Origin: Crocinitomicaceae bacterium
GTDB lineage: Bacteria > Bacteroidota > Bacteroidia > Flavobacteriales_D > Crocinitomicaceae
Direction: 5' to 3'
Assembly (NCBI GenBank): GCA_029254025.1
Contig: JAQWYK010000027.1
Coordinates: 1 to 48,096 of the forward strand
DNA: 48,096 nt
In this document: one piece after another, positions 17,432-45,510 of the stretch
How the letters are laid out: every line of letters starts with the position of its first letter
Numbering within the stretch: position 1 is the first letter of the stretch
Notes under the pieces: generated by a model
What the model was told of the DNA's origin: nothing
What the model saw: the letters and a program-made list of their open reading frames with translations, nothing else
Database searches by the model: none
Made by a program: the position numbers and the translations under genes

Positions 17432-17435
17432 TTCA

Positions 17436-27741: not shown

Positions 27742-30700
27742 TGACGTGGCTTTGTGTTTTTAAGACAGATTCTACCTCTAAATGTGTAGGTTTTTTTCCT
27801 TTCCAGAACCATGTAAAGAATCGCTTTACGTCATTTCCAAATAGAATTGCCGCCGGGAAAAATCCGAGAATAAACAATGTTCCGAATAACACTCCAAAGG
27901 CTATTGAAACCGCCATTGGGATCAAGAACTGCGCTTGCATACTCTTTTCAGCAATTAAAGGAAGTAGTCCCGCAACTGTTGTTATCGTAGTTAACAGAAT
28001 AGGTCTGAAACGGGAAATAGAAGCCTCATAGCTTGCGTCCCAACTGGAGTGCCCTTCAAGTATCAATTGGTTATAACGATCTAAGAATACCACAGCGTCG
28101 TTAATCAAAACTCCGAGAAGTGCAATCATTCCAAATACACTCAATACGGAAACAGGAATTCCAACAATACCGTGTCCGAGAATTGCTCCCGCCACTCCAG
28201 CAGGAATAACAAGCAGAATCAGGAAGGCCTGGAAAACAGATGTGAAATGAAGAGAAATAACGATACACATCACTACAATTACAATCATGGTCATATACAT
28301 CATAGAATTTCCAGTTTTCTGGCTCCTTTCGAATTGCCCCATTTTGGCAAATTCAACATTCGGAAAAACCGCAGCGACTTTAGGGATAACTTCATCGCTG
28401 ATTCGGGTGTTGAATACTGCGACTGAGTCCGGATATTTGGAGGTTGCATCCACCTTTATTTGCCGTTTTCCGTCTCTGCGTTTTAAACTTACTGGGCCGC
28501 GTCCAACAGTGAATTTCGCAATTTTATTCAGCGGAATTGCTAAGCCCGTAGGAGTCTTCATCCGCATGTCTTGAAGGTCTACGAGCGATTGTCGATCTTT
28601 TTCTGGATAACGAATCCATACTTTGACTTCATCAGTTCCGATGATTAGACGCTGGGCTTCTCTTCCAAAGAATCCGTTTCGAATCTGAGCAACGACCTCT
28701 GCTTTTCCAATGCCATAAATTTCTGCTTGCGGAAGCAATTCAACATATACTTCGCTCTTTCCGTCGGGGAAATTATCCTTTACATTTTGGATTCCTTCCA
28801 TTTTCACAAGTTCATCCCTGAACAAATTTCTAGCTTTGTCTAATTCCCTCGGGTCTTCCGAGGACAATCCAAACTCCACATCAGCTCCAAATCGGTTGAA
28901 TCCTCCTACGAAAAATTCTTTGGTCAGTTTTCCTTCTGGAAGTGCATTGATTCTTCTAATTACCCGATTGGTTAATGTGTCCAATGGTGTGTCAACGTTT
29001 TCTGAGTTGTAATAAACATTAAGCATCCCAGTATGATTACCAAATTGACCTAGATTCATCGTAGAACCGATGTTACTCGTAAAATACGAAATCATCTCAT
29101 CTCCAGTTTCGACCTTGATTTTTTCATTTTCTTCAAGAAGAATACGTGTCGAAAGAGCAAGGAAATCACGTGTTTTCACCTTAGCATCTCCTGGGGTGTA
29201 TGCCACTTCTATGTTAAAGAAATCAGGTGGAATATTCGGAAAGAATGTCGCACCTATTTTTCCTCCAGCTAAGAGCATTATTGTTGTTACCGTAAAGATC
29301 AAAGGAATGTAAAAGGCAATTCTTCGCAGTTTGAAATATTTCCCCCGGATCAAATACTTTTCAGAGAGGAAAAAGGTAACCAGGTCTTTAAACACAACAT
29401 CGCGAACACCTCGAATGAAAAAATCAGCACCTTTTCGTACTTTTCCTTCCACAGGAGAGTTAGAGAAGCCATTAAATACCAAAACAGCTCCTAAAATGAT
29501 GATGCTGAAAGGAAACAAAACAGCTCCAAGGTTAAAGGTAGTTGGTATAAGGCGTGTGCCGATAAAAATAACGATAATACCTGCAGCAATAAATAGAAGT
29601 CCCTTTGCAAGGTTAAGATTCAATGTTTTTTGTTCGGAAAGAATTTTCTTACTTGCCAGGTGGGAGGGAAGAATGAAAAAGGCTTCAAAAAGCGAAAATC
29701 CGAGGCAGGCCATTACAACAAAGGCCATTTCTCGCATCATTTCCAACCCTTCTACAAAGAGTAACACGGAAAAAGCAATCATTGTTGTAAGAACGGATGT
29801 AAAAACGGAAGGTAGAACCTCCATTGTTCCATCAATAGCCGCCTGAGGGGCTGTTTTTCCTTTTTCAAAGTGGGAATAAATGTTCTCTGCGATAACAATC
29901 CCGTCATCCACCAATATTCCCACTACGAGGATCATTCCGAATAATGAAATCATATTTACTGTCATACCGTACCAGTAGCCTAAAATAAACATCCCTAAAA
30001 ATGAAAAGGGGATACCAAAGGCTACCCACGCTGAAAGTTTCATGTTTAGGAATAGACCAAGCGCGAGGAGCACGAGTACTAAACCGAAAATACCATTCTC
30101 GCTTAAAAGGTCGATACGGTCAGAAAGCATCGTGTTGAATTCGAAATATATTTCGAACGAATAATCTGGATTATCTTCGTTAAAACGTTCTTTGTATTCT
30201 CCAATCGCTTTTGATATTGCTGCAATATCCTCTTCTGCTGTTTTTTGAATTTGAAATGAAATGGAAGGACGACCATTGTACATGGATTCTTGAGATCCTT
30301 CAGCAAATCCAAACTTGACATCAGCAACATCGTTGACGCGAATGCTCTCACCAGTTAGGGCTGTCCGAACGATGATGTTTCCAATGTCTTCTGGCGTTGT
30401 TCCTCGACTGTTTGAGCGGATATTCATTTCCTGAATACCTCCTGTTAATAAACCAGCAGTTATATCGTTGTTTTTTAAACTGATGGCCATTGAGACCTCT
30501 TCCATGGATATGTTATAGCGTAATAAATCGTTTTCACGAATGGTCACGGCCAATTCCGTTTCAGGAAATCCTTGTTTAATAATTTGAGTAATGACTTTAG
30601 TGTTGAGTAGATCGCGCTCCACTTTATTCGCCATTTTTGTTAAGTCTTGCTTGGAGACTTTATCTGGGTTAACAGCTGTGATTCCAACAAACGCAACATT

Positions 30701-31114
30701 ACTCGACATGCTACTTGTTTTTAATCGCGTTATGGTCGGTTTTTCAGCTCCTTGAGGAAAGCTATTGATGGAATTAACGGCGTTTTCCACATCGCTTAGC
30801 AGCTCGTCCATATCAGCATCTTGGTAGGCACTTATAGTAAGCTGGGCAACATTTTCTTGGGAAGTTACATCTATATGTTCAATATCTTTCAGGCCTTTTA
30901 CGGCTTGTTCAATTTTGATGCTGACTCCTTCCTCCATCTCCTCAGGAGCGGCACCAGGGTAAAAAACAGAGATAACAATTCGATTAGGGTCAAGTTCGGG
31001 GAAAAATGAGCGGTTCAAATTGAACAAGGACCATAGTCCAAACATAAGGACGACAGCAATGAACGCGTTTGTCCAAATGGGTCTTTCAATAAAAAACTGA
31101 ATTACTTTTCTCAT
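27716..31114 (-). CDS. RND (AcrB-type) efflux transporter, inner-membrane pump
   Basis: A 1132-aa proton-driven transporter with two repeats of six transmembrane helices. It opens FFIERPIWTNAFIAVVLMFGLW (TM1), with porter domain motifs YPGAAPEEMEEGV and LKTSSMSSNVAFVGI. TM4 has the double-Asp proton relay VVGILVDDGIVIAENI, followed by TSVLTTMIAFSVLL. The TM10 segment is LLGVLINDAVVFLDR, where AcrB has its relay Lys; Asn-Asp at this place is usual in the broader HAE1-like group and does not imply inactivity. Downstream comes PILLTTITTVAGLLPL. It is the second gene of the operon, 8 bp after the adaptor gene. Drug, metal or lipid export are all possible. Confidence 0.93.
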   Translation of the reverse strand: MRKVIQFFIERPIWTNAFIAVVLMFGLWSLFNLNRSFFPELDPNRIVISVFYPGAAPEEMEEGVSIKIEQAVKGLKDIEHIDVTSQENVAQLTISAYQDADMDELLSDVENAVNSINSFPQGAEKPTITRLKTSSMSSNVAFVGITAVNPDKVSKQDLTKMANKVERDLLNTKVITQIIKQGFPETELAVTIRENDLLRYNISMEEVSMAISLKNNDITAGLLTGGIQEMNIRSNSRGTTPEDIGNIIVRTALTGESIRVNDVADVKFGFAEGSQESMYNGRPSISFQIQKTAEEDIAAISKAIGEYKERFNEDNPDYSFEIYFEFNTMLSDRIDLLSENGIFGLVLVLLALGLFLNMKLSAWVAFGIPFSFLGMFILGYWYGMTVNMISLFGMILVVGILVDDGIVIAENIYSHFEKGKTAPQAAIDGTMEVLPSVFTSVLTTMIAFSVLLFVEGLEMMREMAFVVMACLGFSLFEAFFILPSHLASKKILSEQKTLNLNLAKGLLFIAAGIIVIFIGTRLIPTTFNLGAVLFPFSIIILGAVLVFNGFSNSPVEGKVRKGADFFIRGVRDVVFKDLVTFFLSEKYLIRGKYFKLRRIAFYIPLIFTVTTIMLLAGGKIGATFFPNIPPDFFNIEVAYTPGDAKVKTRDFLALSTRILLEENEKIKVETGDEMISYFTSNIGSTMNLGQFGNHTGMLNVYYNSENVDTPLDTLTNRVIRRINALPEGKLTKEFFVGGFNRFGADVEFGLSSEDPRELDKARNLFRDELVKMEGIQNVKDNFPDGKSEVYVELLPQAEIYGIGKAEVVAQIRNGFFGREAQRLIIGTDEVKVWIRYPEKDRQSLVDLQDMRMKTPTGLAIPLNKIAKFTVGRGPVSLKRRDGKRQIKVDATSKYPDSVAVFNTRISDEVIPKVAAVFPNVEFAKMGQFERSQKTGNSMMYMTMIVIVVMCIVISLHFTSVFQAFLILLVIPAGVAGAILGHGIVGIPVSVLSVFGMIALLGVLINDAVVFLDRYNQLILEGHSSWDASYEASISRFRPILLTTITTVAGLLPLIAEKSMQAQFLIPMAVSIAFGVLFGTLFILGFFPAAILFGNDVKRFFTWFWKGKKPTHLEVESVLKTQSHVNEKAFRND

Positions 31115-31122
31115 CCTTTTAA

Positions 31123-32238
31123 TTATTTTGTAATACCCACATATTTAACTGAATCACGAATGGTTGTAAGCGGTTCAAGGAGGATAAGCGCTCCATTCTG
31201 TAGACCTGTAACATAAACAGAATCTACCTTCCGATTTAAAATGTTCACTGGTTTCGTAAGGATTAGGGAATCTTCTAGTACCTGTATTTTACCATTTATC
31301 ACAGCATTCTCGGGAAGTATCATACTGTTTTCCATGGTCTCTATATCTAATACCAAGTTTATGAACATGCCTTGATAAATAGATTCACCGCCAGATGCGT
31401 TCAGCGAAAAATAAGCGTCAATAGATTGTGTTTGTTGATTGATGACCTCGGATGTACGCAGCAGTTTTCCTGTTCCAATGAGGTTGCCATTTGGATCTGT
31501 GAGTTCAACGAATTCGGCGCGCTGAAAAAGTGGGAGTTGAGCAGTTGCAATTGGCGCTTTCACTTCAAAATCAGTTGTCTTCGCTATTGTTGCTAAGCGC
31601 ATGCCTGGAGAAACCATTGAACCTGGTTCTGCGAAGCTACTTACGACTGTGCCATCAAAGGGAGCTAAATAAAAGTAATTGTCCAATTGGTTTTCTGCTG
31701 CTTTGATGTTGTAGTATTCAGTAGGCAAGTTTCTACTCGCGATAAACAATTTTTCCTTGTTAGTGGCAGATATTGGAAAAGGAGGGAGCTCTTGTAGAGG
31801 GTCTAATGCTAATAGAAAACGTTCCCATTTCTGGAATTCTGATGGATAGTCAAGCTTGATGTCCGGAAGTATATTGGTAACAAGTGTCGTGAAAGCGCTT
31901 CTGCGAGCTATTATGGAATAAAGCGCATCCACACGCTCTACTTTGAAAAGCACCTCATTCTTTTTAAAGCGCATTCCTGGTTTCCATGACTTCATTTCAC
32001 GCTCAACAAATCCTTGAACTTTCATAGTTACATCCATTTGAGAATTTGGTAATACCTGACCGTAGGAGGTGATTTTATTTTGATGGATTTTGTTGTTTAC
32101 TTCTTGGACACCAACGAAATTAACGGATTCAGAAGGTGTTTTTTTGTCTTCTATTTCCGGCGTAGACATTATGGGGAAATAAATTAGTCCTAGCAGGACA
32201 ATGATAACTCCTAGAATGATAAATTGACGTGTTTTCAT
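31123..32238 (-). CDS. HlyD/AcrA-type periplasmic adaptor of the RND operon
   Basis: A 371-aa membrane-fusion protein with one N-terminal membrane anchor (QFIILGVIIVLLGLIYFPI). The lipoyl half-motifs are GFVEREMKSWKPGMRFKKNEVLFKVE and NYFYLAPFDGTVVSSFAEPGSMVSPGMRLATIA. The helical region between them is short (about 90 residues), giving a small hairpin. A beta-barrel domain follows (DFEVKAPIATAQLPLFQRAEFVEL). It is the first gene of the operon. An exact -7 box TACCTTTG lies 32 nt upstream of the ATG. Confidence 0.88.
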   Translation of the reverse strand: MKTRQFIILGVIIVLLGLIYFPIMSTPEIEDKKTPSESVNFVGVQEVNNKIHQNKITSYGQVLPNSQMDVTMKVQGFVEREMKSWKPGMRFKKNEVLFKVERVDALYSIIARRSAFTTLVTNILPDIKLDYPSEFQKWERFLLALDPLQELPPFPISATNKEKLFIASRNLPTEYYNIKAAENQLDNYFYLAPFDGTVVSSFAEPGSMVSPGMRLATIAKTTDFEVKAPIATAQLPLFQRAEFVELTDPNGNLIGTGKLLRTSEVINQQTQSIDAYFSLNASGGESIYQGMFINLVLDIETMENSMILPENAVINGKIQVLEDSLILTKPVNILNRKVDSVYVTGLQNGALILLEPLTTIRDSVKYVGITK

Positions 32239-32270
32239 GGATGTTATTACAATTAAATTGTTTCAATGTT

Positions 32271-32278
32271 CAAAGGTA
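32271..32278 (-). promoter_or_regulatory. -7 promoter box of the RND efflux operon
   Basis: Minus strand reads TACCTTTG (exact TAnnTTTG), 32 nt before the adaptor ATG. No -33 TTTG at the expected spacing. Confidence 0.5.
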
Positions 32279-32419
32279 GAAGTATTCATAGGAATTGTGT
32301 TAATAAAATACGCAAAAGGCCTCGGGAAAAGTTGAATGGTGAAAGATGAAAATAGAGGGTGTTAATAACTTCGTTGAAAAACATGCGTGGAACTACATCG
32401 AAAGGCCTATCTATCCCTT

Positions 32420-32427
32420 TAATTTTG
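32420..32427 (+). promoter_or_regulatory. -7 promoter box for the 180-aa gene
   Basis: TAATTTTG (exact TAnnTTTG), ending 26 nt before the ATG at 32454; AAAAGGAC between them can serve as ribosome binding site. Confidence 0.45.
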
Positions 32428-32453
32428 TAGATGTTACTAAATAAAAGGACAGT

Positions 32454-32996
32454 ATGCTAACAGCTATTTTTAAAAAGAAATTATCAGATGATCAATTATC
32501 TACAATTTTTGTGAACGGAGTTCTCGATGTCGTCGATAAAAGTTTTTCGGAGGTAGCATGTTTGATAAAAGAAGATCCTGCTTTTGTTACCCCACCAGAT
32601 TTATCTAAAGCAAACGATGGCCATTTTACAATGATTGTGATTGTCGCGAATTTGAATTTTTTGGGGGGTAGCTTTGAAGCAGATCAGTCGGTTCGGTTAG
32701 AGAAATTAATTATCACGAAGTTCTCTGAAATTTTCGAAGTGGAAGAGGGTCAATTTAAAAATTATTTAACCGAATACCGCAACTTCATTTCGCGCGTGAA
32801 TCATCCTTCAAAAAATATGATTTACGGCATGTCAAAAGCCATTTTTCATAAGTACAAGTTAAATGAATACCAAGATGATTACTTCCGCAGTATGGATTGC
32901 CCCAATCCACTTTTCTTAAAGAGAATGGATGAAGTAGTTGTTAACTTCATTTGGAACTGGGAAGCGTTTTTTAAGCGCTACAAAATGGTAGGTTAA
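32454..32996 (+). CDS. Conserved-looking soluble protein, unknown function
   Basis: A 180-aa protein without signal peptide or membrane segment. It is predicted to be mostly helical, with many aromatic residues in the second half (FKNYLTEYRNFISRV, FHKYKLNEYQDDYFRSMDC, VVVNFIWNWEAFFKRYKM). No known motif or catalytic pattern is visible and I cannot name a family. It has a credible -7 box and a Shine-Dalgarno-like AAAAGGAC before ATG 32454, and stands alone between two divergent and convergent minus-strand units. Codon use matches its neighbours, so it is very likely a real gene. Confidence 0.7.
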   Translation: MLTAIFKKKLSDDQLSTIFVNGVLDVVDKSFSEVACLIKEDPAFVTPPDLSKANDGHFTMIVIVANLNFLGGSFEADQSVRLEKLIITKFSEIFEVEEGQFKNYLTEYRNFISRVNHPSKNMIYGMSKAIFHKYKLNEYQDDYFRSMDCPNPLFLKRMDEVVVNFIWNWEAFFKRYKMVG

Positions 32997-33072
32997 TGCC
33001 TGGTGTTCAGGTTGATTAAGTATTCTATTAATTAAACTGTGTTGACTTTAACACTGCTTTTTAAAGTAATAA

Positions 33073-33696
33073 TTACTCCCGTTTTAATTCTCCTTTGCGC
33101 CAAGATTCTACAAACTTACTCCATGCAGCGGGATTTAACAAATTGTTCATTGGTGTTTGTCCCATTGTATATAACCTAGTCTGTTGTTGTTGTATCTCCC
33201 AATTGTAGGAAAGTCCTCCATCTGTTGGAATTCGAGCCGCGGCAAACGCTAAACTCTCTCCTGAAAGTTGACGCTGTGCTTTACGCAAGGCGTCATCATA
33301 GGGTTCCATTTCAACAAAGGCACGTGCGAAATCCTCCCGTGAGGGCCAAGGATATACCTCAACTTCAGGTAGTAATATCGTATCGGGTGTCATAATATGG
33401 ATAATGGAATAGCGATTTTCACTAAGTGTATCTGGCACGATGTAAGAATTGGGTTTAAAACCAAACGCATTGAATAAAATGGTGTCTCCTGGTTTTGTTA
33501 CGAAACTGAAGTATCCATAATAATCTGCCATTGTTCCTTTACGGGTAGTTTTGTCGATAATCGATGCATAGGACACTAGGTCTAGGCTGTCCGCAGATAC
33601 TAGTACACCAGATAGTTGAACGAGCTGATCGTCTTTCTGACTAAAGGATGGAAGAGAAGCAAGTACACTGATTGTAAGAACAAGTTGAATGCGCAT
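33073..33696 (-). CDS. Secreted CarboxypepD_reg-like domain protein
   Basis: A 207-aa protein with a signal peptide (MRIQLVLTISVLASLPSFS, cleavage near residue 19). Residues ~26-110 look like a carboxypeptidase-regulatory-like beta-sandwich: VQLSGVLVSADSLDLVSYASIIDKTTRKGTMAD, YYGYFSFVTKPGDTILFNAFGFKP. This matches the family core of 'variation-in-name plus GTxTDxxGxFxL'. The C-terminal part (FVEMEPYDDALRKAQRQLSGESLAFAA) is helical and polar. Such proteins are common in the Bacteroidota periplasm or surface, with no precise role known. A -7-like box TAAACTTG (one mismatch) lies just upstream at 33710-33717. Confidence 0.75.
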   Translation of the reverse strand: MRIQLVLTISVLASLPSFSQKDDQLVQLSGVLVSADSLDLVSYASIIDKTTRKGTMADYYGYFSFVTKPGDTILFNAFGFKPNSYIVPDTLSENRYSIIHIMTPDTILLPEVEVYPWPSREDFARAFVEMEPYDDALRKAQRQLSGESLAFAAARIPTDGGLSYNWEIQQQQTRLYTMGQTPMNNLLNPAAWSKFVESWRKGELKRE

Positions 33697-33766
33697 AGGG
33701 ACTTTTTTACAAGTTTAGAGAATGTTTAGCTGGTTTATCACTTTTTTTGAAAACTTTAACAACCCA

Positions 33767-35884
33767 TTAATTCGTTTTTATGATTTTATGTGTTTCAAAT
33801 AGGGTTTCATCCTTTAAAATTACTAAGGAATAAATGCCTTCTGCAATGGGTTGAAGTGAAAAAGATAATTCGTTCAGTCCAGCCTTTGTTTGCTCCTCGC
33901 GCAAGACTTTCACCAATCTTCCGTTATCATCGTACAAGGCAACGCGAATGTAGGCGTCTATATCCAACATAAATTGAATGGCCATCAAATCGGAGGACGG
34001 ATTAGGGAATACAGAAACACCTTCTTCCAGAGATTTCGGAGGAACAACATAAGTGATAGAAGCGCTACATCCTCGATTGTCTGTTACGGTAACCATAACG
34101 GTGTCTGTTGCACATAGGCCTCCGACATTAAAGGCAGTCGAATTTATTTCTGAATTATTCGAGCTCCAAGCAATCTCATACGGTGCTTCACCAGCGCTGA
34201 TTTGCAGTTGAAGCTGGTTGTCACATAACGAAGTTTGTTCTAACAAGGAAAGTGCGAGTTGAAGTTGGGAGGAATCTGGATTGATGAGTTCTGCAAAGTA
34301 TCCGCTATTGCTTTTGTTTTGCATGGCAAAATATCCAAAGGAATATACCTTCCCTTTTTCATTGTGCTTGCGCTGAAGCCCAAAATAGTCTCCCCAACGT
34401 TCGTAGCCGCCTGGTAATCGATCTACATAATTCAGGCCTTCGGAAATGCTTGTTACTGGAGAGTACTGGCCATCATTGGAATAATGAAATGCGGCGGTCC
34501 CCGGAAAGTCTGTAAACGAAGAATAATCAAAGGCTATAATTGTTTCAATATCACATGCTTCATTTCCAGATGAAGCAATGTTGGGGTAGGCGTAATCTCT
34601 AATTGAATCGCCAACTATTGTCCCGTAAACCATTGGTGTACCCTCTTCAATTCCTTCGATAATTCCATGATAGATTGCCGAAAAACCCGTTGTCGGATGC
34701 ATAGTATTGCTTACAAATTGTATATGGTTTTCAAATCGGATAGCTCCTAAGACTCTTGCGTCATTCGTTTGTAATCCAAGGGTAACATCACTTGTGTCAG
34801 TGTCTTGTTGGCGAGCATTCGGTGGAACACCATAAGGAACGTTTGTCTTTAAGGCATCAACTGTAAGGTTTCCATTCGTCAAGCGTAAATAAAAAATAGT
34901 ATCATTTTCGACCGCAAAGTTGCGATTGGATAATAAAATTAAATCGTTCATTATTCCATTTGAGCCTTGAACTGCGTGGAGATTTCGGATGAACTTGTTT
35001 TCGTATGTGATGTTGCTATATAGTGTAGCGTTTAGTGAAGGAGAGCCATTGTATCCAGCTGACTTGTCCATTTCCCAAATGATGGAGCCATCGAATCCTA
35101 CTTGCCAAGATACACCAGGGATAATGAGATTGGCAGTAAAATAAATGTGTTCTTCGGTGACCGTAATCACCGGAAAATCCGTCCACCGGTTATTGTTCAG
35201 TGGGTTTCCTGGAAGATTGTAAACGTACCATTCGTCATTCGGATTGGAAGTCGAACTGATACAAATAATAACCTCCGATTTTTCAGGGGTATTATCTTTC
35301 AATAAGGCACAAATAAAGCGATCGGCTGTTGGGTCGTAATACAGTTTGGGATCATAATAGGTGCTTGTTGTTACTCCGTTAGCCAGTGAGCGCAGGAAAA
35401 ATTGGTAGTCCGGAAATACGGCTGTATCTCCATAAATGTCGTGTGCATATAGTGTTGAGTTCATGGCGACAAGTGCAATTCCATCATCCGATATAGCAAG
35501 TGTATTGTCGCTAGGTATACCTCCGTAAATAGGTAATTCAACACCATTGGGTAGAAATCGAGTTGGCTGAAAAGTGAAACCTACTTGTGGGGGGTGGTTC
35601 GATTTGGGTAACGAAACAAAATTTTCCTTGCACGACTGGCTTCGATAATAATCACGGGCCTTTTGCTTCTGTCCCATGAGAAACGATTGATAGCTGTTTC
35701 CATCTGGAGCAGGTTTTTCAAAGTTTTTAATTTCTGCATGAAAGTCTACTGGAACTGTCTTTGGATCAACTACAGCAGTTCGATTTAACACGAAAGGTGT
35801 TTTTAGAATGTCTTGCGAAAATACATCTTTGACAATCAAAATGCTGATGAAGGTGAAGATTAGGTATGAATATCGGTGATACAT
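33767..35884 (-). CDS. Large secreted protein with T9SS type-A sorting domain
   Basis: A 705-aa protein with a signal peptide (YLIFTFISILIVKDVFS, cleavage near residue 23). The long middle region has repeated beta-rich segments such as YGGIPSDNTLAISDDGIALVAMNSTLY, DPTADRFICALLKDN, WTDFPVITVTEEHIYFTANL and VYSFGYFAMQNKS, suggestive of a propeller-like fold; I recognise no enzyme motif. A short Ig-like region (SLLEQTSLCDNQLQLQISAGEAPYEIAWSS) precedes the C-terminal sorting domain VSVFPNPSSDLMAIQF ... LYDDNGRLVK ... GIYSLVI ... HKIIKTN. This has the typical T9SS type-A layout (PNP motif, GxY motif, basic end). It would be exported by the PorP/GldK machine encoded at the left edge of the window and anchored or released at the cell surface. 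Confidence 0.88.
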   Translation of the reverse strand: MYHRYSYLIFTFISILIVKDVFSQDILKTPFVLNRTAVVDPKTVPVDFHAEIKNFEKPAPDGNSYQSFLMGQKQKARDYYRSQSCKENFVSLPKSNHPPQVGFTFQPTRFLPNGVELPIYGGIPSDNTLAISDDGIALVAMNSTLYAHDIYGDTAVFPDYQFFLRSLANGVTTSTYYDPKLYYDPTADRFICALLKDNTPEKSEVIICISSTSNPNDEWYVYNLPGNPLNNNRWTDFPVITVTEEHIYFTANLIIPGVSWQVGFDGSIIWEMDKSAGYNGSPSLNATLYSNITYENKFIRNLHAVQGSNGIMNDLILLSNRNFAVENDTIFYLRLTNGNLTVDALKTNVPYGVPPNARQQDTDTSDVTLGLQTNDARVLGAIRFENHIQFVSNTMHPTTGFSAIYHGIIEGIEEGTPMVYGTIVGDSIRDYAYPNIASSGNEACDIETIIAFDYSSFTDFPGTAAFHYSNDGQYSPVTSISEGLNYVDRLPGGYERWGDYFGLQRKHNEKGKVYSFGYFAMQNKSNSGYFAELINPDSSQLQLALSLLEQTSLCDNQLQLQISAGEAPYEIAWSSNNSEINSTAFNVGGLCATDTVMVTVTDNRGCSASITYVVPPKSLEEGVSVFPNPSSDLMAIQFMLDIDAYIRVALYDDNGRLVKVLREEQTKAGLNELSFSLQPIAEGIYSLVILKDETLFETHKIIKTN

Positions 35885-36036
35885 GTAGCTATGTTTTGAC
35901 CTTAAAAATACTTATTTGACAGGAAATAACTGTCCCTTGATCAGAAGTATTTTATGGTTAGCAGTCTTGTTTTTGTTTTAAAAATAGTTATAATGTTAAA
36001 AAAATAACAAAAAATGAAATAAATGGATATAGTAAT

Positions 36037-36044
36037 TATCTTTG
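36037..36044 (+). promoter_or_regulatory. -7 promoter box for the disrupted lysA
   Basis: TATCTTTG (exact TAnnTTTG), ending 18 nt before ATG 36063, so the transcription signal survives although the reading frame is broken. Confidence 0.45.
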
Positions 36045-36062
36045 CACTTTAAAATTATTAAT

Positions 36063-37213
36063 ATGAGTTATACACGCCCTTATTATCGATTGGATCTTAC
36101 TCTTCTTCAAGAGACATTAACTGCTGCTCAATCTGCAGCTAGTCAGCATACATTCGTATTAAAATATGCGATGAAAGCCAATCATGAAAGTAAGGTTTTG
36201 CAAAGATAAAGGCTGCAGGCCTGGGAGTTGGTTGTGTTTCACAGGAGGAAATTGCACGCGCATTGGCGTTGGGTTGGGGGTCCTCCGAGATCGTTTTCGC
36301 AGGATCAGGAAAAACCATTCGAGAAATAACCTTCGCTCTTCGCAATAATATTGGAATCTTGCATTGTGAGTGCATTGAGGAATGGCAGCTGGTACAGTCA
36401 TTGAAGGCGGAATTAGACGCGACGACGTTAATCGCTTTGCGTATAAATCCAGACCTTCGTGTGGATACTCATGAGAAAATTAGCACAGGAGAAAAAAAGA
36501 ATAAATTTGGTATGTCTTTTTCTGAGGCGCTCCAGATTGTGCGTCAACATCCAACAACGATTGTAGGTTTTCATTTTCATGTCGGTTCACAGATTCTTGA
36601 CCTAAGCTATTTTGAAGATTTGTCACTTACCGTGCGCTCTCTGTTGTAACAATTGCCTCCAGTGTTTCGACTTTCATACCTTAATTTAGGGGGAGGGTTA
36701 GGAGTAGATTACCTGCATCCTGAGCGCGCAAGAATAGCAGATTTTTCAGGTTGGATGAGGGCATTGCGAACACATTTGCCGACGTCATTGGTTCAAGAAA
36801 TTGTCCTAGAACCCGGAAGAAGCATAACGGCTCAGTGTGGTACATTGATCGGTGCGGTACAATATATCAAAAAACGTGAGGAGCAGTCCATTACTATTTT
36901 GGACATTGGAATGACTGAGCTATTGCGGCCTGCTTTGTATGGGGCGCGCCATAAAATAACAGCGATGAATGATAGTTGCATTACTGAACGATATACGATT
37001 TCTGGTCCTTCTTGTGAAAGCAGCGACACATTTGGTGAAGGATATGTTTTACCAACGTTGTCAAGGGGGGATTTGGTGAGGATACACTCTACGGGCGCGT
37101 ATGGGACTAGTATGCGTTTAGCCTACAACCTCAAAGAACCTTTGAATGTGGTTTATGTCGACCAGCCAGCCCAGACATCATTGAAGGTAGGCTTGTTTCA
37201 TTTTGCATCTTAG
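36063..37213 (+). pseudogene. lysA: Diaminopimelate decarboxylase-like gene, broken by a frameshift and a stop codon
   Basis: Fold-type III PLP decarboxylase; LysA makes lysine from meso-diaminopimelate. From ATG 36063 the frame reads MSYTRPYYRLDLTLLQETL and YAMKANHESKVLQR (PLP Lys in YAMKAN), then stops at 36207-36212. The homology continues in another frame from about 36205 (KIKAAGLGVGCVSQEEIARAL), consistent with loss of one A from an A-run. A second lesion is an in-frame TAA at 36647-36649 (LLTVRSLL-stop-QLPP). Beyond it the enzyme resumes: LNLGGGLGVDY, VLEPGRSITA, CESSDTF and GAYGTSMRLAYN. All catalytic motifs are kept (HFHVGSQI, EPGR, CESxD), and total length (about 383 codons) equals an intact enzyme. 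Carboxynorspermidine decarboxylase is a related alternative. Real decay or assembly errors cannot be separated here. Confidence 0.85.
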
Positions 37214-37263
37214 CCATTCTTCGAGCTTTTCCCTTTGTTGGGTGAATGATTTCTAAATTATCC

Positions 37264-37271
37264 TAATTTTG
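37264..37271 (+). promoter_or_regulatory. -7 promoter box for the GNAT gene
   Basis: TAATTTTG (exact TAnnTTTG), with TTG at 37238-37240 23 nt upstream, the same spacing as at dnaB. The leader to ATG 37314 is about 40 nt. Confidence 0.45.
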
Positions 37272-37313
37272 CGAGGCAGGTGGTGTACAATTAATTATTT
37301 GCCAAGATAAATC

Positions 37314-37751
37314 ATGAAAGAGAACTTTGAATTGGTGGAATTACTCGAAAAAAAAGAGCTGTTAATGACACTTCCGCTGTTGAATTTTTTGTATCCAGAA
37401 TTGACCATTGATGGGTATTCAGATTTATTGGATGAAGTCATGAAGTCAGGTCGCTATCGTCAATTGCTGGTCAAAATAAATGGCCAACCAGTCGGTGTAT
37501 CTGGTTTTTGGATTGGTACAAAAATTTGGTCGGGAAAGTACTTGGAAATAGATCATTTTGTGGTGGATAGCGCCTTTCGTTCGAGAGGTATCGGTGAGCT
37601 TATGGTTAGCTACCTAAAGGAAGAAGCAATTGCTGAAAATTGCCAGATGCTTGCTTTGGATGCATATACCGATAATTTTCCAGCGCAGAAGTTCTTTATG
37701 AATGCAGGTTTTGTACCAAGGGGATTTCACTTTATTCAAAAACTGAAATAA
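37314..37751 (+). CDS. GNAT family N-acetyltransferase
   Basis: A 145-aa acetyltransferase. The acetyl-CoA-binding strand and loop are clear in LEIDHFVVDSAFRSRGIGELMVSYLKEEA (about residues 81-109, the R/Q-x-x-G-x-G/A motif as SRGIGE), followed by CQMLALDAYTDNFPAQKFFMNAGFVPRGFHFIQ, the usual C-terminal strand with the Tyr/Phe-containing end. The acceptor substrate cannot be read from the sequence. It has its own -7 box and leads toward the lipoprotein-Nudix-amidohydrolase cluster, from which it is 65 bp away. Confidence 0.88.
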   Translation: MKENFELVELLEKKELLMTLPLLNFLYPELTIDGYSDLLDEVMKSGRYRQLLVKINGQPVGVSGFWIGTKIWSGKYLEIDHFVVDSAFRSRGIGELMVSYLKEEAIAENCQMLALDAYTDNFPAQKFFMNAGFVPRGFHFIQKLK

Positions 37752-37816
37752 TGCAGAGTATAGCCTCTTCTCCAGAATATGATTATTTTTAGGTGAAATT
37801 AATAATTGAGGGACGA

Positions 37817-38434
37817 ATGTGCAAATGGGGTGTATATAGTGTGATCGTTGTTTTGCTTAGTTCATGTGGAGGAGAAGAAGGGCAGTCAGCTCAACAGCCT
37901 GTCTCTAAGACTGCACACTTCAGTTATTCAGATTTTGTAATAAGAAGTTTTTCTGATCAACACACGCAGGTCACAATCTCTATTCCAGATTGTTTTGAAA
38001 AGGATGAGTATGGAAATTATGGATTGAATAATCATTGGATGCTCAGCTGTTATGACAATTATTCTTTTCTGTCCATTGACTACTTTACCTTAGAGGAAAT
38101 CGAGAACTACTTTTATTATTACTCTGATGAAGAAGGTGATATGGGAGAACCCCTTACTTACTTATTAGACTATATTATTCATCAACGTGCAGGAAATTTA
38201 ATTCAATCGGAAATTTCCCAACTTACCGGAGAGGTGAACGACCGAAAGGCCAACTTCTTATTCCAATCCGTTACTGGAAGTGAGACGGACTATCAGGATA
38301 ATGTGTTTTTTCTTTTTGGAGCAGTTGAACTTGATGGGCAATATTTTATTGTGCAATCAATTTGCAGTACTGATAATATTAAATTTCATCTGAACGACTT
38401 CAAAAGAATGGCGTTATCGATAAAGCGCGTATAA
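37817..38434 (+). CDS. Lipoprotein of unknown function
   Basis: A 205-aa lipoprotein; the leader MCKWGVYSVIVVLLSSC ends in a lipobox (Cys17) followed by GGEEGQSAQQ. The mature protein is acidic with many aromatic residues (FYYYSDEEGDMG, HWMLSCYDNYSFLSIDYF) and contains FLFGAVELDGQYFIVQSICS near the end. I recognise no family. I chose ATG 37817 because GAGGGACGA precedes it; a GTG at 37793 would put eight residues before a normal leader. Its stop codon overlaps the Nudix ATG by one base (TAATG), so the two are translationally coupled. Confidence 0.75.
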   Translation: MCKWGVYSVIVVLLSSCGGEEGQSAQQPVSKTAHFSYSDFVIRSFSDQHTQVTISIPDCFEKDEYGNYGLNNHWMLSCYDNYSFLSIDYFTLEEIENYFYYYSDEEGDMGEPLTYLLDYIIHQRAGNLIQSEISQLTGEVNDRKANFLFQSVTGSETDYQDNVFFLFGAVELDGQYFIVQSICSTDNIKFHLNDFKRMALSIKRV

Positions 38435-39075
38435 TGTTTCACGATCGATTACATGAACTCTCTGAAATTCTTTCTTCCGCTCTGCCTGGTGAAGATAGTC
38501 ACTTGGAAGTTTCGCCACTTGGGAGAACCAAATCAAGTGAGGCAATTAAACATGCGCGAGATTTTAAAGAAAGCGCCGTTTCGTTAGTATTATTCGAGGA
38601 AGCAAGTGTACTTAAAACAGTATTGATCCAAAGACCCGAATATGAAGGCGTACATAGTGGTCAAATAAGCTTACCTGGCGGGAAACGAGATGTGTCAGAT
38701 ATCGATCTACGTATTACAGCGTTAAGGGAATGTGAGGAGGAAGTAGGTATTTCTCGACACGAACTATTGGATGTAGGGAAATTAACCCCTGTTTACATTC
38801 CCGTGAGTAATTTTTCTGTTTTTCCGTATGTATTTTTTCACCCATCGATTCCTCAATTGGTAAAAGACCCCAAAGAAGTAGTCGACATAATTGTTTTTCC
38901 GATTCAAGATATCTGTCAAGAAACTGCTGTGCGGAGAACTACGGTAACGGTGTCGAAGAACATGCAGTTGAAGGACGTACCTTGCTTTGTAATCAATGAA
39001 AAGGTCGTTTGGGGTGCTACTGCTCTTGTTTTGAACGAGTTTAGACGAATAATCATGAATACAAAATTGTTATGA
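38434..39075 (+). CDS. Nudix hydrolase, probable CoA pyrophosphatase
   Basis: A 213-aa protein of the NudL/YeaB type, which hydrolyses coenzyme A and derivatives to phosphopantetheine and 3',5'-ADP. The Nudix box is LPGGKRDVSDIDLRITALRECEEEVGI (about residues 77-103), holding the GG, the RE and the EE-x-G-I. The segment just before it (TVLIQRPEYEGVHSGQISLPGG) matches the NudL-specific 'H-x-GQ-x-x-x-PGG' pattern. Later, PVYIPVSNFSVFPYVFFH is the usual NudL continuation. Coupled on both sides: TAATG with the lipoprotein and ATGA with the amidohydrolase. Confidence 0.88.
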   Translation: MFHDRLHELSEILSSALPGEDSHLEVSPLGRTKSSEAIKHARDFKESAVSLVLFEEASVLKTVLIQRPEYEGVHSGQISLPGGKRDVSDIDLRITALRECEEEVGISRHELLDVGKLTPVYIPVSNFSVFPYVFFHPSIPQLVKDPKEVVDIIVFPIQDICQETAVRRTTVTVSKNMQLKDVPCFVINEKVVWGATALVLNEFRRIIMNTKLL

Positions 39076-40697
39076 AAATCACATTAAGCGTATTAATAAT
39101 TATCCTTTTAACCAGCTGTTTTAAGGGTGAAAAAATTGACCTAATTATACATAACGGGAACATTCATATTATCAATGACCAAATGGATGTGGTGGAGGCT
39201 GTAGCCATTCATAATGGTAAAATTATTGAATTTGGTCCCGAACGCGAAATCTTGAATAAATACAGGGCTGAACAGGAAATTAATGCACAACAAAAAGCCG
39301 TCTATCCCGGGTTACATGATGCGCATGGCCATGTCATGAGTTACGCGAGTCAAAAAATGGTGGTGGATTTAACAGGAACTACTTCTTATTACGAAATGCT
39401 GCTAAGGCTCGAGAAATTTGATGCCCATCATGATCCAGAATTTCTTGTTGGACGTGGTTGGGATCAAAGTTTATGGGGGGAAGACGAGCTTCCAACAAAT
39501 TCTTTGCTCAACGAACGATTTCCAGACAAACCTGTATTATTAACAAGAGTTGACGGGCATGCGGCCATAGCAAATGAGGTAGCACTTACGCGTGCAAAGA
39601 TTGATGAGAATACCATTGTTCCCGGTGGAAAGGTGATTCAAGAAAAAGGAAAAGTCACAGGGCTTTTGCTAGATCATGCGATTGACATAGTGAGCAACTT
39701 TGTTCCTAAGCCGAATCGAGAAGATTTGAGAAAAGCAATTCTTGAAATTGAGCAAGAATTATTGGCTTATGGAATCACGCATGTTCATGAGGCAGGTGTT
39801 ACCCATGAACAATTAATGGTGCTGGATGAGATGGTCAGCGATGGTAGCCTGAACATTGGTATGTATGTTATGCTTTTTCCGACCGTTGAAAACATGGATT
39901 TTGCACGGGAGAGGGGACATTATGAGAATAAAAATTTATCTGTAAGAAGTTTTAAGATGTTAATGGATGGCGCACTGGGATCACGCGGTGCTTGCCTCCT
40001 CAATCATTATTCGGACATGCCTGGAGAGTTTGGATTCTTGTTAATGTCTGAAGCGGAAATGTTGAGCCATACTTCGGAGGCACTACGAATTGGTTATCAG
40101 GTTAATGCCCATTGTATAGGTGATTCAGCGAATAGAATATTGCTTAAACATTATGACACGTTATTGGTAAATGAAGTAGACCACCGTTGGCGTATTGAGC
40201 ATGCGCAAGTGGTGGCCGAAGAGGATATTTCATTGTTTTCGTCGTCGGGTGTTATCCCTTCCATCCAGCCGACACATGCGGTTTCTGATTTTCGTTGGGC
40301 AAAAGAGCGGTTGGGTGAGCAGCGACTAACATCTGCCTATGCCTATCAATCTTTACTGAACGAAAGGCAAATGGTTGTTTTGGGAACAGATTTTCCCGTT
40401 GAAAATATTGATCCATTTGCAACAATTTATGCGGCTACTGCTAGAAAAAATAGGGAAAATGAGCCGAGTTCAGGCTTTCTGAAGGATCAAGCCATGGGAT
40501 TGGATGATACCATGCGGGGAATGACTATTTGGGCAGCATACGGCTCGTTTTTGGAGCATTCATTAGGGTCTCTTGAAAAAGGAAAGAATGCTACATTGGT
40601 GATTTTTGACCAACCAGTGCGTGCGAGTCAAAAATTTGAACCGAATTACGCCTTTATGACATTTATTGATGGAAAAGTAGTCTATTCCATGGAATAA
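39072..40697 (+). CDS. Amidohydrolase family lipoprotein (YtcJ-like)
   Basis: A 541-aa metal-dependent hydrolase with a lipoprotein leader (MKITLSVLIIILLTSC, Cys16). The beta-sandwich start IDLIIHNGNIHIINDQ and the metal motif VYPGLHDAHGHVMSY (His-x-x-His) lie near residues 23-92. Later parts match the YtcJ/LAF3 group: FLVGRGWDQSLWG, LLTRVDGHAAIANEVAL, SFKMLMDGALGSRGACLL, QVNAHCIGDSANRILL, WRIEHAQVVAEEDI, VLGTDFPVENIDPFATIYAA. The group hydrolyses N-acyl or other amide substrates; the precise substrate is unknown. The exported form suggests action on extracellular or periplasmic compounds. ATG overlaps the Nudix stop (ATGA). Confidence 0.88.
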   Translation: MKITLSVLIIILLTSCFKGEKIDLIIHNGNIHIINDQMDVVEAVAIHNGKIIEFGPEREILNKYRAEQEINAQQKAVYPGLHDAHGHVMSYASQKMVVDLTGTTSYYEMLLRLEKFDAHHDPEFLVGRGWDQSLWGEDELPTNSLLNERFPDKPVLLTRVDGHAAIANEVALTRAKIDENTIVPGGKVIQEKGKVTGLLLDHAIDIVSNFVPKPNREDLRKAILEIEQELLAYGITHVHEAGVTHEQLMVLDEMVSDGSLNIGMYVMLFPTVENMDFARERGHYENKNLSVRSFKMLMDGALGSRGACLLNHYSDMPGEFGFLLMSEAEMLSHTSEALRIGYQVNAHCIGDSANRILLKHYDTLLVNEVDHRWRIEHAQVVAEEDISLFSSSGVIPSIQPTHAVSDFRWAKERLGEQRLTSAYAYQSLLNERQMVVLGTDFPVENIDPFATIYAATARKNRENEPSSGFLKDQAMGLDDTMRGMTIWAAYGSFLEHSLGSLEKGKNATLVIFDQPVRASQKFEPNYAFMTFIDGKVVYSME

Positions 40698-40727
40698 CAA
40701 AGGGAAAGGGATATCTTTAGAAGCATT

Positions 40728-40735
40728 TACGTTTG
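40728..40735 (+). promoter_or_regulatory. -7 promoter box for the FG-GAP protein gene
   Basis: TACGTTTG (exact TAnnTTTG), leaving a leader of about 50 nt before ATG 40792. No clear -33. Confidence 0.4.
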
Positions 40736-40791
40736 TTTTAACGCTTCACTGGGGAGAAACGTTTTAGAGAAGAATAAGAAAACAATATACA

Positions 40792-43050
40792 ATGATGAGA
40801 GTTTTGTTGACTGCTTTATGGACATGCTTAATTGGAACAGTATGGTCTCAGTTTGGATTTGTCTACCATGATTCTATTGTAGTGAAATTTGGAGGGGATA
40901 CGCTTGCACTTCCTTGGGCAGGAGGATTTAATCATGCCCAATTTTCGTCGTTTGATTTCGATTTTGATGGTGAAGAAGACTTGTTTCTTTTTGATAGAAG
41001 CGCCAATCAGATACGCGTGCTACAAAGGAAATTTGATGGTGCAGGAAACCCACATTACGAATATGTTCATGGTGTTCGAGACAAATTTCCTGAGGACGTA
41101 AGGTACAGAGCAGCTCTTGTAGACTATAATAATGACGGAAAACCTGATTTATTTACCTACGGTATTGGCGGTGTAAAAGTGTACAGAAATACGGGGAACC
41201 CAACCGATGGTCTTCAATGGGAGCTGGCTTCCAATTTGCTTCGAACAGATTATTTAGGGACCAATTCCAATTTATATGTTAGTTCTATTGATATTCCGGC
41301 AATCGTTGATGTAGACAATGATGGAGATCAAGATATTCTCACCTTCCATTTGGGTGGACAGCGTGTGGAATACCACAAGAACGTTTCAATGGAGAACTAC
41401 GGGGTGCCGGATTCCCTTGAATTCGTGTTAATGAATGAGTGTTGGGGACAGTTTATTGAGGATGAGTCGAATAATTCAGTGGTATTATATGCAACAGATG
41501 GCCCATGTGGTGGTGGAACTTCTGTGCCGAACCCGGAAAAGAATTTACGCCATGCGGGCTCATGCTTGCTGGGCCTTGATTTGAATCAAGATGAGGTGTT
41601 GGATTTGGTTCTGGGAGATGTGGCACACACTAACCTAACAGCATTGATTAATAGTGGCACAGCTCCGAATCAAAACTCGCCTATGGAGTCAGCCGACCCA
41701 AGCTTTCCGAGTAACACGACTCCAGTCGACTTGTCTGTTTTTCCGTGTAGCTTTTACTTGGATGTCGATCATGATGGAGTCAAAGATATGGTGGTAGGAA
41801 CTAATGCAGCGGGTGTAGCGCAGAACAAATCAAGTATTGCATATTATAAGAACCTCGGAACCAATGATGCTCCTAATTTCAGCTTTGTTCAAAATGATTT
41901 TCTTCAAGAGGAAATGATTGAAAATGGTCGTGGTTCTATTCCAGTATTGGTAGATCTCAATGGAGATGGCATTAGAGACCTCCTTGTGGCTACGAACTAT
42001 CGGTATAAACCAATTCTTGAAAAAGAAGCCCGCATCATGTCGTTTTACAATACTGGAACGAATTTAAACCCTGTTTTTACATTTGTCGATGACGATTGGA
42101 TGAGTTTTTCAACTTCTGGTCTGGGATTGAGAGTTGTGCCAACGTTCGGAGATTTAGATGACGATGGCGATCTAGACATGATGGTAGGTACAGAGACGGG
42201 AGATGTTCATTACTATGAAAATACAGGGGGGCTAGGTCCGATGAACTTCTCTACTCCGCCAGTGTTACAATTTCAAGATAATCAAGGATCAATTATTAAT
42301 GCCACTGGTTTTTCAACTCCTAATTTATTTGATATTGACAATGATGGACTTTTGGATTTAGTCATAGGGAGAAGAATTGGTGGTATGTTTTATTACAGAA
42401 ATGTTGGATCGGCAAGTATGGCCAGTTTTGAACTGGTTACCGATAATTTTGGAAATGTAAATTTGTCAACACCACTCAATCCAGAAAGTTATGCTGTTCC
42501 GCAGTTCATTCGTCATAACGATACGCTTAATTTATTTGTGGGGAACCGTTCAGGTACCATTCATTATTACAAGGATTTAGAATCCAATTTATTTGATGGA
42601 GGCATTTTCACGCAAATCTCTGCAGGTTATGCAGGTATCAATACTGGTGGGTTTTCAGCTCCCTTCATCACACAATTAACTGAAGACAGTGCTTATTACA
42701 TGTTCGTTGGTGGAGATTTAGGGGGATTGTGGAATTTTAAAGCAGAACCTTTCAGCGCTCCAATAATCGATGATACATTGAGTTTGCTGAACTGGTCAAA
42801 GGAGTTCGATTGGACAGTATTTCCTAACCCTTCCGTTAACGGTAAATTCACATTGGCAGTAGATACTTCGTCACCGGAAATTTTTATGGAGGTAACTGAC
42901 GTGTTGGGTCGGGTCGTTAGCAGCCGAAAGCCTGTTTTCGGTGAAGCAATGATTGACTTGTCCAACCAGCATAACGGTATTTATCTCGTTCAGTTGCTTT
43001 CGGTTTCTGGTAATTTCCTAGGTTCCAAAAAACTGATAAAACAGGAATAG
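40792..43050 (+). CDS. FG-GAP/VCBS-repeat secreted protein with T9SS type-A sorting domain
   Basis: A 752-aa protein with a signal peptide (MRVLLTALWTCLIGTVWSQ). At least eight calcium-binding FG-GAP blades of the DxDxDGxxD type are visible: DFDFDGEEDLFLFD, DYNNDGKPDLFTYG, DVDNDGDQDILTFH, DLNQDEVLDLVLGD, DVDHDGVKDMVVG, DLNGDGIRDLLVA, DLDDDGDLDMMVG and DIDNDGLLDLVIG. The set implies a beta-propeller that binds proteins or glycans. The C-terminus is a T9SS type-A domain: WTVFPNPSVNGKFTLAV ... VTDVLGRVVSS ... HNGIYLVQL ... GSKKLIKQE. It would be a cargo of the GldK/PorP secretion system. The start may be ATG 40792 or the next codon, ATG 40795. Confidence 0.93.
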   Translation: MMRVLLTALWTCLIGTVWSQFGFVYHDSIVVKFGGDTLALPWAGGFNHAQFSSFDFDFDGEEDLFLFDRSANQIRVLQRKFDGAGNPHYEYVHGVRDKFPEDVRYRAALVDYNNDGKPDLFTYGIGGVKVYRNTGNPTDGLQWELASNLLRTDYLGTNSNLYVSSIDIPAIVDVDNDGDQDILTFHLGGQRVEYHKNVSMENYGVPDSLEFVLMNECWGQFIEDESNNSVVLYATDGPCGGGTSVPNPEKNLRHAGSCLLGLDLNQDEVLDLVLGDVAHTNLTALINSGTAPNQNSPMESADPSFPSNTTPVDLSVFPCSFYLDVDHDGVKDMVVGTNAAGVAQNKSSIAYYKNLGTNDAPNFSFVQNDFLQEEMIENGRGSIPVLVDLNGDGIRDLLVATNYRYKPILEKEARIMSFYNTGTNLNPVFTFVDDDWMSFSTSGLGLRVVPTFGDLDDDGDLDMMVGTETGDVHYYENTGGLGPMNFSTPPVLQFQDNQGSIINATGFSTPNLFDIDNDGLLDLVIGRRIGGMFYYRNVGSASMASFELVTDNFGNVNLSTPLNPESYAVPQFIRHNDTLNLFVGNRSGTIHYYKDLESNLFDGGIFTQISAGYAGINTGGFSAPFITQLTEDSAYYMFVGGDLGGLWNFKAEPFSAPIIDDTLSLLNWSKEFDWTVFPNPSVNGKFTLAVDTSSPEIFMEVTDVLGRVVSSRKPVFGEAMIDLSNQHNGIYLVQLLSVSGNFLGSKKLIKQE

Positions 43051-43060
43051 TTGAACCTTC

Positions 43061-43867
43061 CTAACGTAGCGGGAAAACTACTTCAACCGGGATGTTGAGA
43101 AATGATTTTTCGGGGCGTTGGGCATATATTCCATACAAAGTAGAGCCCGATCCAGTCATCGAGGCGTAAAGCGCTCCTTCTTCCAGCAATTTGTTCTTTG
43201 CAACGGCTAATTCGGGGTGGTTGTTGAAAACCCCTGGTTCAAAATCATTGATTAATAGACCTTTCCATTCCGTGATGTCCTGACTCAACACTGCCAATAT
43301 GGGCCGCTGTGGCGCTTCAGGTATAACCCCACTGTAAGCTTCAGCGGTACTCACGTGAATCCCAAGATTAATGATTTTGATAAAGAAGTCGGCTAAGCTG
43401 AATTCAATCGGGGCGGTGATTTCTCCTCTTCCTGTGCATAGTTGCGGCCTGTTTTCAATAAAAAAAACGCAATCACTTCCGAGTTTAGCCGCTTCAATTT
43501 TTAGCTCTTGAGGGGATAAATCAAGCTCAAATAAGTTATTCAACAAAATTAGTGTGAAGGCGCCATTTGAAGATCCTCCCCCCAATCCGCCTCCCATGGG
43601 GATAATTTTGTGCAGATGAATATGTACTGGCGGAATATCATGTAATTTTTTGAGTAGTTCATAAGCCTTTAAACACAAGTTGTTTTCAGGGTTACCGGGT
43701 ATCTCTAAACCTGTTGATGTAAATATGAGCTCATCTGAAGGAACGATTTCCAGAATGTCTTGAAGTGGAATGGGATACATTACTGTTTCTACTTCATGGT
43801 AATTATCCTCTCGTTTATAGAGAATGTGTAATCCCAAGTTAATTTTACAATCTGGAAAAATTATCAT
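43061..43867 (-). CDS. ispE: 4-diphosphocytidyl-2-C-methyl-D-erythritol kinase IspE
   Basis: GHMP kinase of the MEP isoprenoid pathway; it phosphorylates the 2-hydroxyl of CDP-methylerythritol. It opens IIFPDCKINLGLHILYKREDNYHEVETV, then has the GHMP ATP motif IIPMGGGLGGGSSNGAF near residues 91-107, the segment LGSDCVFFIENRPQLCTGRGE, and the closing LYASMTGSGSTLYGIY. 268 aa is normal for the phylum. ATG 43867 is supported by a TACATTTG box only 5 nt upstream; an alternative start at 43891 would lie upstream of that promoter box. It ends 10 bp past the FG-GAP gene's stop, convergent with it. Confidence 0.96.
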   Translation of the reverse strand: MIIFPDCKINLGLHILYKREDNYHEVETVMYPIPLQDILEIVPSDELIFTSTGLEIPGNPENNLCLKAYELLKKLHDIPPVHIHLHKIIPMGGGLGGGSSNGAFTLILLNNLFELDLSPQELKIEAAKLGSDCVFFIENRPQLCTGRGEITAPIEFSLADFFIKIINLGIHVSTAEAYSGVIPEAPQRPILAVLSQDITEWKGLLINDFEPGVFNNHPELAVAKNKLLEEGALYASMTGSGSTLYGIYAQRPEKSFLNIPVEVVFPLR

Positions 43868-43872
43868 AAGTA

Positions 43873-43880
43873 CAAATGTA
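43873..43880 (-). promoter_or_regulatory. -7 box 5 nt before the ispE ATG (leaderless-type)
   Basis: Minus strand: TACATTTG, TACTT, ATG. An exact TAnnTTTG match so close to the codon implies transcription starts at or next to the ATG. Confidence 0.5.
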
Positions 43881-43892
43881 GGAATAGCCAAC

Positions 43893-43900
43893 TATTTTTG
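43893..43900 (+). promoter_or_regulatory. -7 promoter box for accA
   Basis: TATTTTTG (exact TAnnTTTG), ending 30 nt before the accA ATG at 43931. It lies back-to-back with the ispE promoter, 12 bp apart. Confidence 0.45.
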
Positions 43901-43930
43901 TAACTTTCGACCCTCAAAAAAAAATAAAAT

Positions 43931-44884
43931 ATGTCAATATATTTAGATTTTGAAGAACCTATTAAGGCCTTAGAAGAGCAAATAGCTAAAGCGAAAGAGA
44001 TTGGTCAAGAGGCAGAGCTTGATATGACAGATAAAATTAAGGCGTTAGAGAAAAAACTTTCAGAGAAAACAACGGAGATTTTTTCTAATTTAACTCCATG
44101 GCAGCGCGTCCAATTGTCGCGTCATCCAGATAGACCTTATACCTTGGCCTATATTAATGCTATCAGTCAGGGTACTTTTCAGGAATTACATGGAGATCGA
44201 AGTGTAAAAGATGATAAAGCAATGGTGGGTGGTTTCGGCTCACTAGATGGCCAAACAGTTATGTTTATTGGTCAACAAAAGGGAATGAATACCAAAATGC
44301 GCCAATACCGTAATTTCGGAATGCCTAATCCAGAAGGTTATCGAAAAGCACTTCGCTTGATGAAATTAGCAGAGAAATTCAATAAGCCGATAGTTACCTT
44401 TATTGATACTCCAGGAGCATTTCCAGGGTTAGAGGCAGAAGAACGTGGACAAGGAGAAGCAATCGCACGAAATATCTATGAAATGATGGGGCTAAAAGTT
44501 CCTGTTATCTGCATAATTATTGGTGAAGGAGCATCCGGTGGAGCACTTGGGATTGGTGTAGGGGACAAGGTGTTGATGTTGGAAAACACCTGGTATTCTG
44601 TTATCTCACCTGAGTCATGCTCATCTATCCTATGGAGATCATGGGATTTCAAAGAAAAAGCTGCTGAAGCGCTAAAGTTGACATCCGAAGACATGAAAAA
44701 GCTGAAGTTAGTTGATGGTGTAATCAAAGAGCCTGCTATGGGAGCACATCGTAATCCGGAAGAAGCTTTTTCTATTGTGAAGTCAGAGATCAAAAAACAC
44801 ATCAATGCATTATCAAAGATTGATGCGGAGAAAAGATGCGAAGCAAGAATTGAAAAGTTCTGCAAGATGGGTGTAGTGAAGTAG
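43931..44884 (+). CDS. accA: Acetyl-CoA carboxylase carboxyltransferase subunit alpha
   Basis: Half of the carboxyltransferase (with AccD) that moves CO2 from biotin to acetyl-CoA, the first step of fatty acid synthesis. It opens [22 protein letters not shown], then [40 protein letters not shown], and the crotonase-like core [71 protein letters not shown], ending with [14 protein letters not shown]. All 317 residues match the family in order. It is single, with its own promoter and a strong terminator 56 bp downstream. Confidence 0.97.
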
Positions 44885-44940
44885 ATCATTGATACACTTC
44901 GAAAGTGAAATTGCTTTCGATGTTCAATAAAAATATAACA

Positions 44941-44975
44941 AACAAAAAAGTCCAGATTATCTGGACTTTTTTGTT
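44941..44975 (+). terminator. Strong intrinsic terminator after accA
   Basis: A 17-bp perfect inverted repeat with one central base: AACAAAAAAGTCCAGAT-T-ATCTGGACTTTTTTGTT. The GC core GTCCAGA/TCTGGAC is followed by six T residues on the plus strand and preceded by A residues, so it may also work on the minus strand for the small lipoprotein gene. Confidence 0.85.
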
Positions 44976-45063
44976 GTTGTTTGAGTTTTGGTTTTTCAAC
45001 CAAGTTGCGCAGTTACTTGCTCTTGAAACTACTAACGTTCTATGAATATAGAATTACGTTTAA

Positions 45064-45446: not shown

Positions 45447-45510
45447 CAGAAAAAAGAGAGGAATGATATTTCGTCCTACTTTTTTCCCTGCGGCAACCCA
45501 TAAAAAATTT

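Follow-up and report, generated by a model that had tools for sequence, protein, structure and literature searches.

The lysA locus in this Crocinitomicaceae genome is best read as a pseudogene, broken twice here and by different lesions in a sister species, in an organism that would still make diaminopimelate and obtain its lysine from outside (a probability of roughly 85%). Biological loss of the gene, an ordinary process, is the most likely cause. The losses appear to have been recent and separate in the two species, leaving an organism that would need lysine. The window is the whole 48,096-nucleotide stretch that was analysed, and all positions refer to it. Its genome, G000, comprises 2.70 Mb in 50 contigs and is 99.91% complete. 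The sister species, G001, belongs to the same genus and was the one other genus member returned by the family-wide searches; its assembly is 84% complete and lies in 340 contigs.

A lysA gene in three pieces

The ancestral product would have been diaminopimelate decarboxylase, which converts meso-diaminopimelate to lysine. The features at the locus are as follows.

36037..36044, + strand: promoter-like TATCTTTG, upstream of the lysA ATG, with its start at a distance of 26 bases (27 bases in the sister)
36063..36203, + strand: lysA pseudogene, piece 1, with the PLP-lysine motif YAMKAN (47 codons)
36198..36206, + strand: one-base frame change in lysA, not present in G001
36206..36646, + strand: lysA pseudogene, piece 2, with HFHVGSQI (147 codons, -1 frame)
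36647..36649, + strand: in-frame TAA of lysA; the counterpart region is gone in G001
36650..37213, + strand: lysA pseudogene, piece 3, with EPGR and CESSD (187 codons, then TAG at 37211-37213)
36558..37619, + strand: stretch without counterpart in the G001 locus, from alignment to G001 (a deletion there of ~1.06 kb)
37314..37751, + strand: GNAT acetyltransferase gene, whole in the window and shortened in G001 by the same deletion

Reading from 36063 yields 48 codons (MSYTRPYYR...YAMKANHESKVLQR) and then a TAA at 36207-36209. The lysA reading picks up in the -1 frame at 36206 and is stopped by the TAA at 36647-36649, beyond which piece 3 continues in the same frame. The two lesions that an earlier note had described in this LysA-type gene, a frame change near 36200 and the TAA, can therefore be read directly from the sequence. 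That note had placed a -1 frameshift inside the A-run of CAAAG; the one-base change stands, but the alignment to the sister puts it immediately before CAAAG.

Identification of the gene rests on its second and third pieces, which match the NCBIfam lysA model TIGR01048 with E-values of 7e-35 and 2e-43. Piece 1 alone (47 aa) matched no NCBIfam family; across 46 residues it shares 89% identity with the N-terminal part of the sister's lysA. In the whole-genome search with TIGR01048 the window gene scored 278.2 bits (E 5.3e-83), which excludes chance similarity. It resembles LysA (TIGR01048; PF02784) in sequence, in motifs and in the length of its summed pieces. Unlike LysA, it is not one open frame, its score lies under the curated cut-off of 297.9 bits, and its match covers model positions 69-397, beginning only at position 69. 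The homologues L042 and L045 score 331.7 and 324.3 bits. As the earlier note had reported, all four LysA catalytic motifs, whose roles in the enzyme are well established, can be found in the window translations (the PLP lysine, HxHxGSQ, EPGR and CESxD), the first in a different frame from the rest. The promoter box that it had seen is also there: TATCTTTG has the form TAnnTTTG, which we take to be the Bacteroidota -7 box.

The retention of every catalytic motif and of a promoter-like box is what one would expect if lysA were still expressed, through a programmed -1 shift and read-through of the stop. We give this almost no credence. It requires two recoding events, G001 reads straight across the shift site in one frame, and the C-terminal half of the gene is lost in G001. 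Moreover, seven intact homologues from the family are single open frames without stops, so that the lesions of the window gene are missing from all of them.

Different lesions in the sister species

The order of the locus is kept in G001: a T9SS-sorted protein, lysA, a GNAT remnant, an ORF matching 37793-38434 and a NUDIX gene. Near 36200, where the alignment shows the window to be one base shorter, the G001 lysA keeps its frame. It carries instead an in-frame TAG of its own, as codon 13 of the second piece, and the ~1.06 kb deletion fuses lysA in frame to what is left of the GNAT gene, its final third. Among lesions that can be scored in both species, none is common to the two genes. The window TAA could be older than the species split, because its counterpart region is missing in G001. 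The deletion itself could be a misjoin, given a sister assembly that is 84% complete and in 340 contigs; the G001 TAG is separate evidence. With the lysA frame broken in both species, neither genome would yield a full-length enzyme.

Assembly error versus decay

The earlier note had raised assembly errors as a possible source of the damage. Sequencing or assembly faults interrupting an intact lysA would fit with lesions that are known from assembly alone and that both fall in one gene, and with the fragmentary state of the sister assembly (340 contigs). Assembly error is nonetheless distinctly unlikely, since the sister has the same locus with other lesions in lysA, and since miscounted homopolymers do not explain a stop codon.

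The rest of the window points the same way. If the assembly were error-prone in general, other genes should be damaged as well. The 33 ORFs of positions 8011-47715 were compared with G001 (the comparison leaves out 1-8010 and the ORF at 47725-48096), and 31 of them matched wholly or partly, over 33,167 bases in total; the partial matches include lysA (495 of 1,151 bases), the GNAT gene (132 of 438) and the ORF at 17415-18416 (455 of 1,002). An uncompensated interior frame change relative to G001 was found in lysA only and in none of the 30 other matched ORFs, some of which matched partly. The other differences are minor: 9277-9738 has a one-base difference in its last sense codon, and 17415-18416 and 43061-43891 show compensating pairs of frame changes. 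The G001 counterpart of 37793-38434 has a stop in codon 6, and the true start of this gene probably lies later than the start of the ORF. The ORFs at 15829-16980 and 17012-17431 had no DNA match in the 84% complete G001 assembly; this unmatched pair adjoins an isochorismate-synthase-like gene (17415-18416).

A broken haem lipoprotein, cited in the earlier note as a second damaged gene, could not be firmly identified. CxxCH is encoded on the coding strand of two full-length ORFs in the window; neither differs in frame from G001 within the compared 8011-47715, so neither resembles the gene meant. They are 19119-19472, a small protein with no match in NCBIfam, and 22361-23440, an MbnH-like di-haem enzyme that scores below the cut-off.

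No second lysA found in the genome

Searches of the 99.91% complete genome with the TIGR01048 model, with the PF02784 domain and at the DNA level found no second lysA; the DNA search with the lysA locus as query returned only the locus itself. The N-terminal domain PF02784 matched twice, in the window lysA and in a 466-aa protein on contig C45. Arginine decarboxylase models give this protein 171 and 161 bits and the lysA model gives it 79, in each case less than the cut-off. The suggestion that the organism has another LysA thus found no backing, and the gene cannot be called a paralogue because no second lysA was found, although the recent loss that the earlier note proposed for such a paralogue probably did occur.

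As the sole other match to the N-terminal domain of the fold, the C45 protein might be thought to make lysine itself and so to render lysA dispensable. This is very improbable: its scores favour the arginine decarboxylase models over lysA, and matches of like length and score, judged by the lysA model only, occur in relatives that keep lysA, for example G003, G012 and G019.

Diaminopimelate synthesis and lysine supply

Diaminopimelate is also a component of the cell wall, and only the LysA step of its pathway is specific to lysine. The dapF gene is open in both G000 and G001, and dapB in G000 is a 249-aa open frame without stops that covers model positions 54-269 of 270. Because both genes lack stops, diaminopimelate is probably still made, and the remaining dap genes would supply it for peptidoglycan. 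Lysine would be imported, probably as amino acids and peptides. Both genomes encode a POT-family peptide transporter, and G000 has one APC amino-acid permease with no substrate assigned; the choice of transporter is inferred. From these gene contents the organism is predicted to be a lysine auxotroph.

Other amino-acid pathways are represented in both genomes, in which ilvC and aroA score over their cut-offs. The aroA match of G001 (G001:C29:9858-11087) contains an in-frame TAA that the G000 gene does not have, possibly another pathway lesion or an assembly fault. Among 22 family genomes, two of them less than 80% complete, ilvC is over the cut-off in three (G000, G001 and G010). The genus thus retains ilvC, which is missing from most of the examined family genomes, yet has lost lysA.

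Pseudogenes of amino-acid biosynthesis are a familiar kind of bacterial gene loss, including cases in which diaminopimelate synthesis is retained for the cell wall. The present locus is like these in that the last, lysine-only step is lost with dapB and dapF kept, a likeness to the general kind only; it differs in having different lesions in two sister species. In the open-access literature, searched mostly without the family name, no paper on lysA loss in Crocinitomicaceae was found. Passages of one study describe some genera of Crocinitomicaceae as bloom specialists, and in them 'auxotroph' occurs only within a reference (PMC9878933).

Age of the loss and selection

Between the window and G001, lysA has a dN/dS of 0.138 over 160 codons (Nei-Gojobori; bootstrap 0.074-0.233, 1,000 replicates). 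This is far below ~1, the value expected if the gene had been dead since the split, and lysA was probably under selection during most of the time since the species split. The value therefore suggests recent losses. It is about twice that of neighbouring genes (0.065 over 5,380 codons), an excess that is weak: among 172 stretches of the same length from the neighbours, 35 reach the lysA level. Any dating of the loss is rough because dS is uneven between neighbouring ORFs (0.065-0.91).

Across 27716-47715, dS relative to G001 varies more than 10-fold among nearby genes, from 0.065 (46738-47715) to 0.91 (38434-39075). Such patchy synonymous divergence between sister species suggests recombination in patches.

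Extra damage at conserved sites, expected relative to intact homologues, amounted to a slight excess at most. Where the seven intact LysA homologues all agree, the window has a different residue in 11 of 144 columns and G001 in 6 of 58. When the invariant columns were instead defined by sets of six homologues, departures amounted to 7.5-9.5% for the window, to 1.4-5.3% for six of the seven intact homologues and to 10%, similar to the window, for the seventh, from G006.

A variant of the main reading holds that lysA was lost once, in the common ancestor, through the TAA or an unseen lesion that predates the split, with the other lesions added later. The main reading is that lysA is dead, and the odds of the two overlap. 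That lysA is broken in both species, that the TAA region is deleted in G001 and cannot be scored there, and that lysA dN/dS is about twice that of its neighbours would all fit a single ancestral loss. The dN/dS of 0.138, whose bootstrap range ends at 0.233, makes it rather unlikely, as the protein was seemingly selected during most of the divergence, a point that the uneven dS of neighbouring genes (0.065-0.91) could blur.

lysA across the Crocinitomicaceae

Besides G000 and G001, lysA scored over the TIGR01048 cut-off in 22 of 34 family genomes. The 12 genomes without it are 96-100% complete. Four of them (G002, G014, G024 and G034) have a relative of 210-221 bits in an FslC-like length class, and the other eight have TIGR01048 matches of at most 91 bits or none. 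All seven of the lysA-less genomes covered by a dapF search have dapF. A search with the window LysA gave no match in 38 of 120 family genomes, or in 34 of 96 when only those of good quality are counted; matches here include distant relatives, the FslC-like class among them.

The length class of 455-470 aa was at first taken for LysA and then rejected. Its scanned member, L036 from G002, fits FslC at 238 bits and lysA at 217, both below the cut-offs, and the class was not counted as LysA because of this slightly better match. L036 lies at G002:C7:127800-129023, and similar proteins occur in genera such as g2, g10, g14 and g15. On the strength of the one member scanned, the class may belong to siderophore pathways, FslC being N-citrylornithine decarboxylase.

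The seven single-frame family homologues are 55-65% identical to the window LysA, which groups with them in a 49-row tree (support 95/100). The 27 family rows of this tree, one of which is a long-branched FslC-like protein, need seven label changes, at least three of them forced by well-supported branches. Genus g7 illustrates the pattern: G065, G108 and G116 have the window-type LysA (63-65% identity), G007, G078 and G124 have another type that is 42-44% identical, and G027 has no match.

Neighbourhoods were little help in tracing the gene. Among window neighbours looked for near lysA in the loci of the seven relatives, three of which span 3-4 kb, only the GNAT gene of G016 matched; this gene (L039:3437-3862), near an intact lysA, is 43% identical to the window's. 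A single-protein scan of genome contigs confirmed no relative, and the best 80 loci of an alignment-based scan were mostly proteobacterial LysA.

Taken from gene content and phylogeny, these patterns suggest that lysA turns over in the family by loss and replacement. A more specific and more tentative proposal, on balance somewhat doubtful, is that the family has gone through repeated cycles in which lysA is lost and then replaced by copies acquired from elsewhere, and that this genus is in a loss phase, with two separate disablings of lysA and with ilvC, a gene for branched-chain amino acids, kept (in 19 of 22 family genomes it does not score above the cut-off).

Implications

The damage to lysA is likely biological and not an assembly fault. 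The locus then illustrates clearly how dependence on an amino acid arises at the single step where lysine supply and cell-wall synthesis part. If a cycle of loss and regain holds true across the family, the Crocinitomicaceae would provide a natural series in which to ask why lysine in particular is left to the environment.
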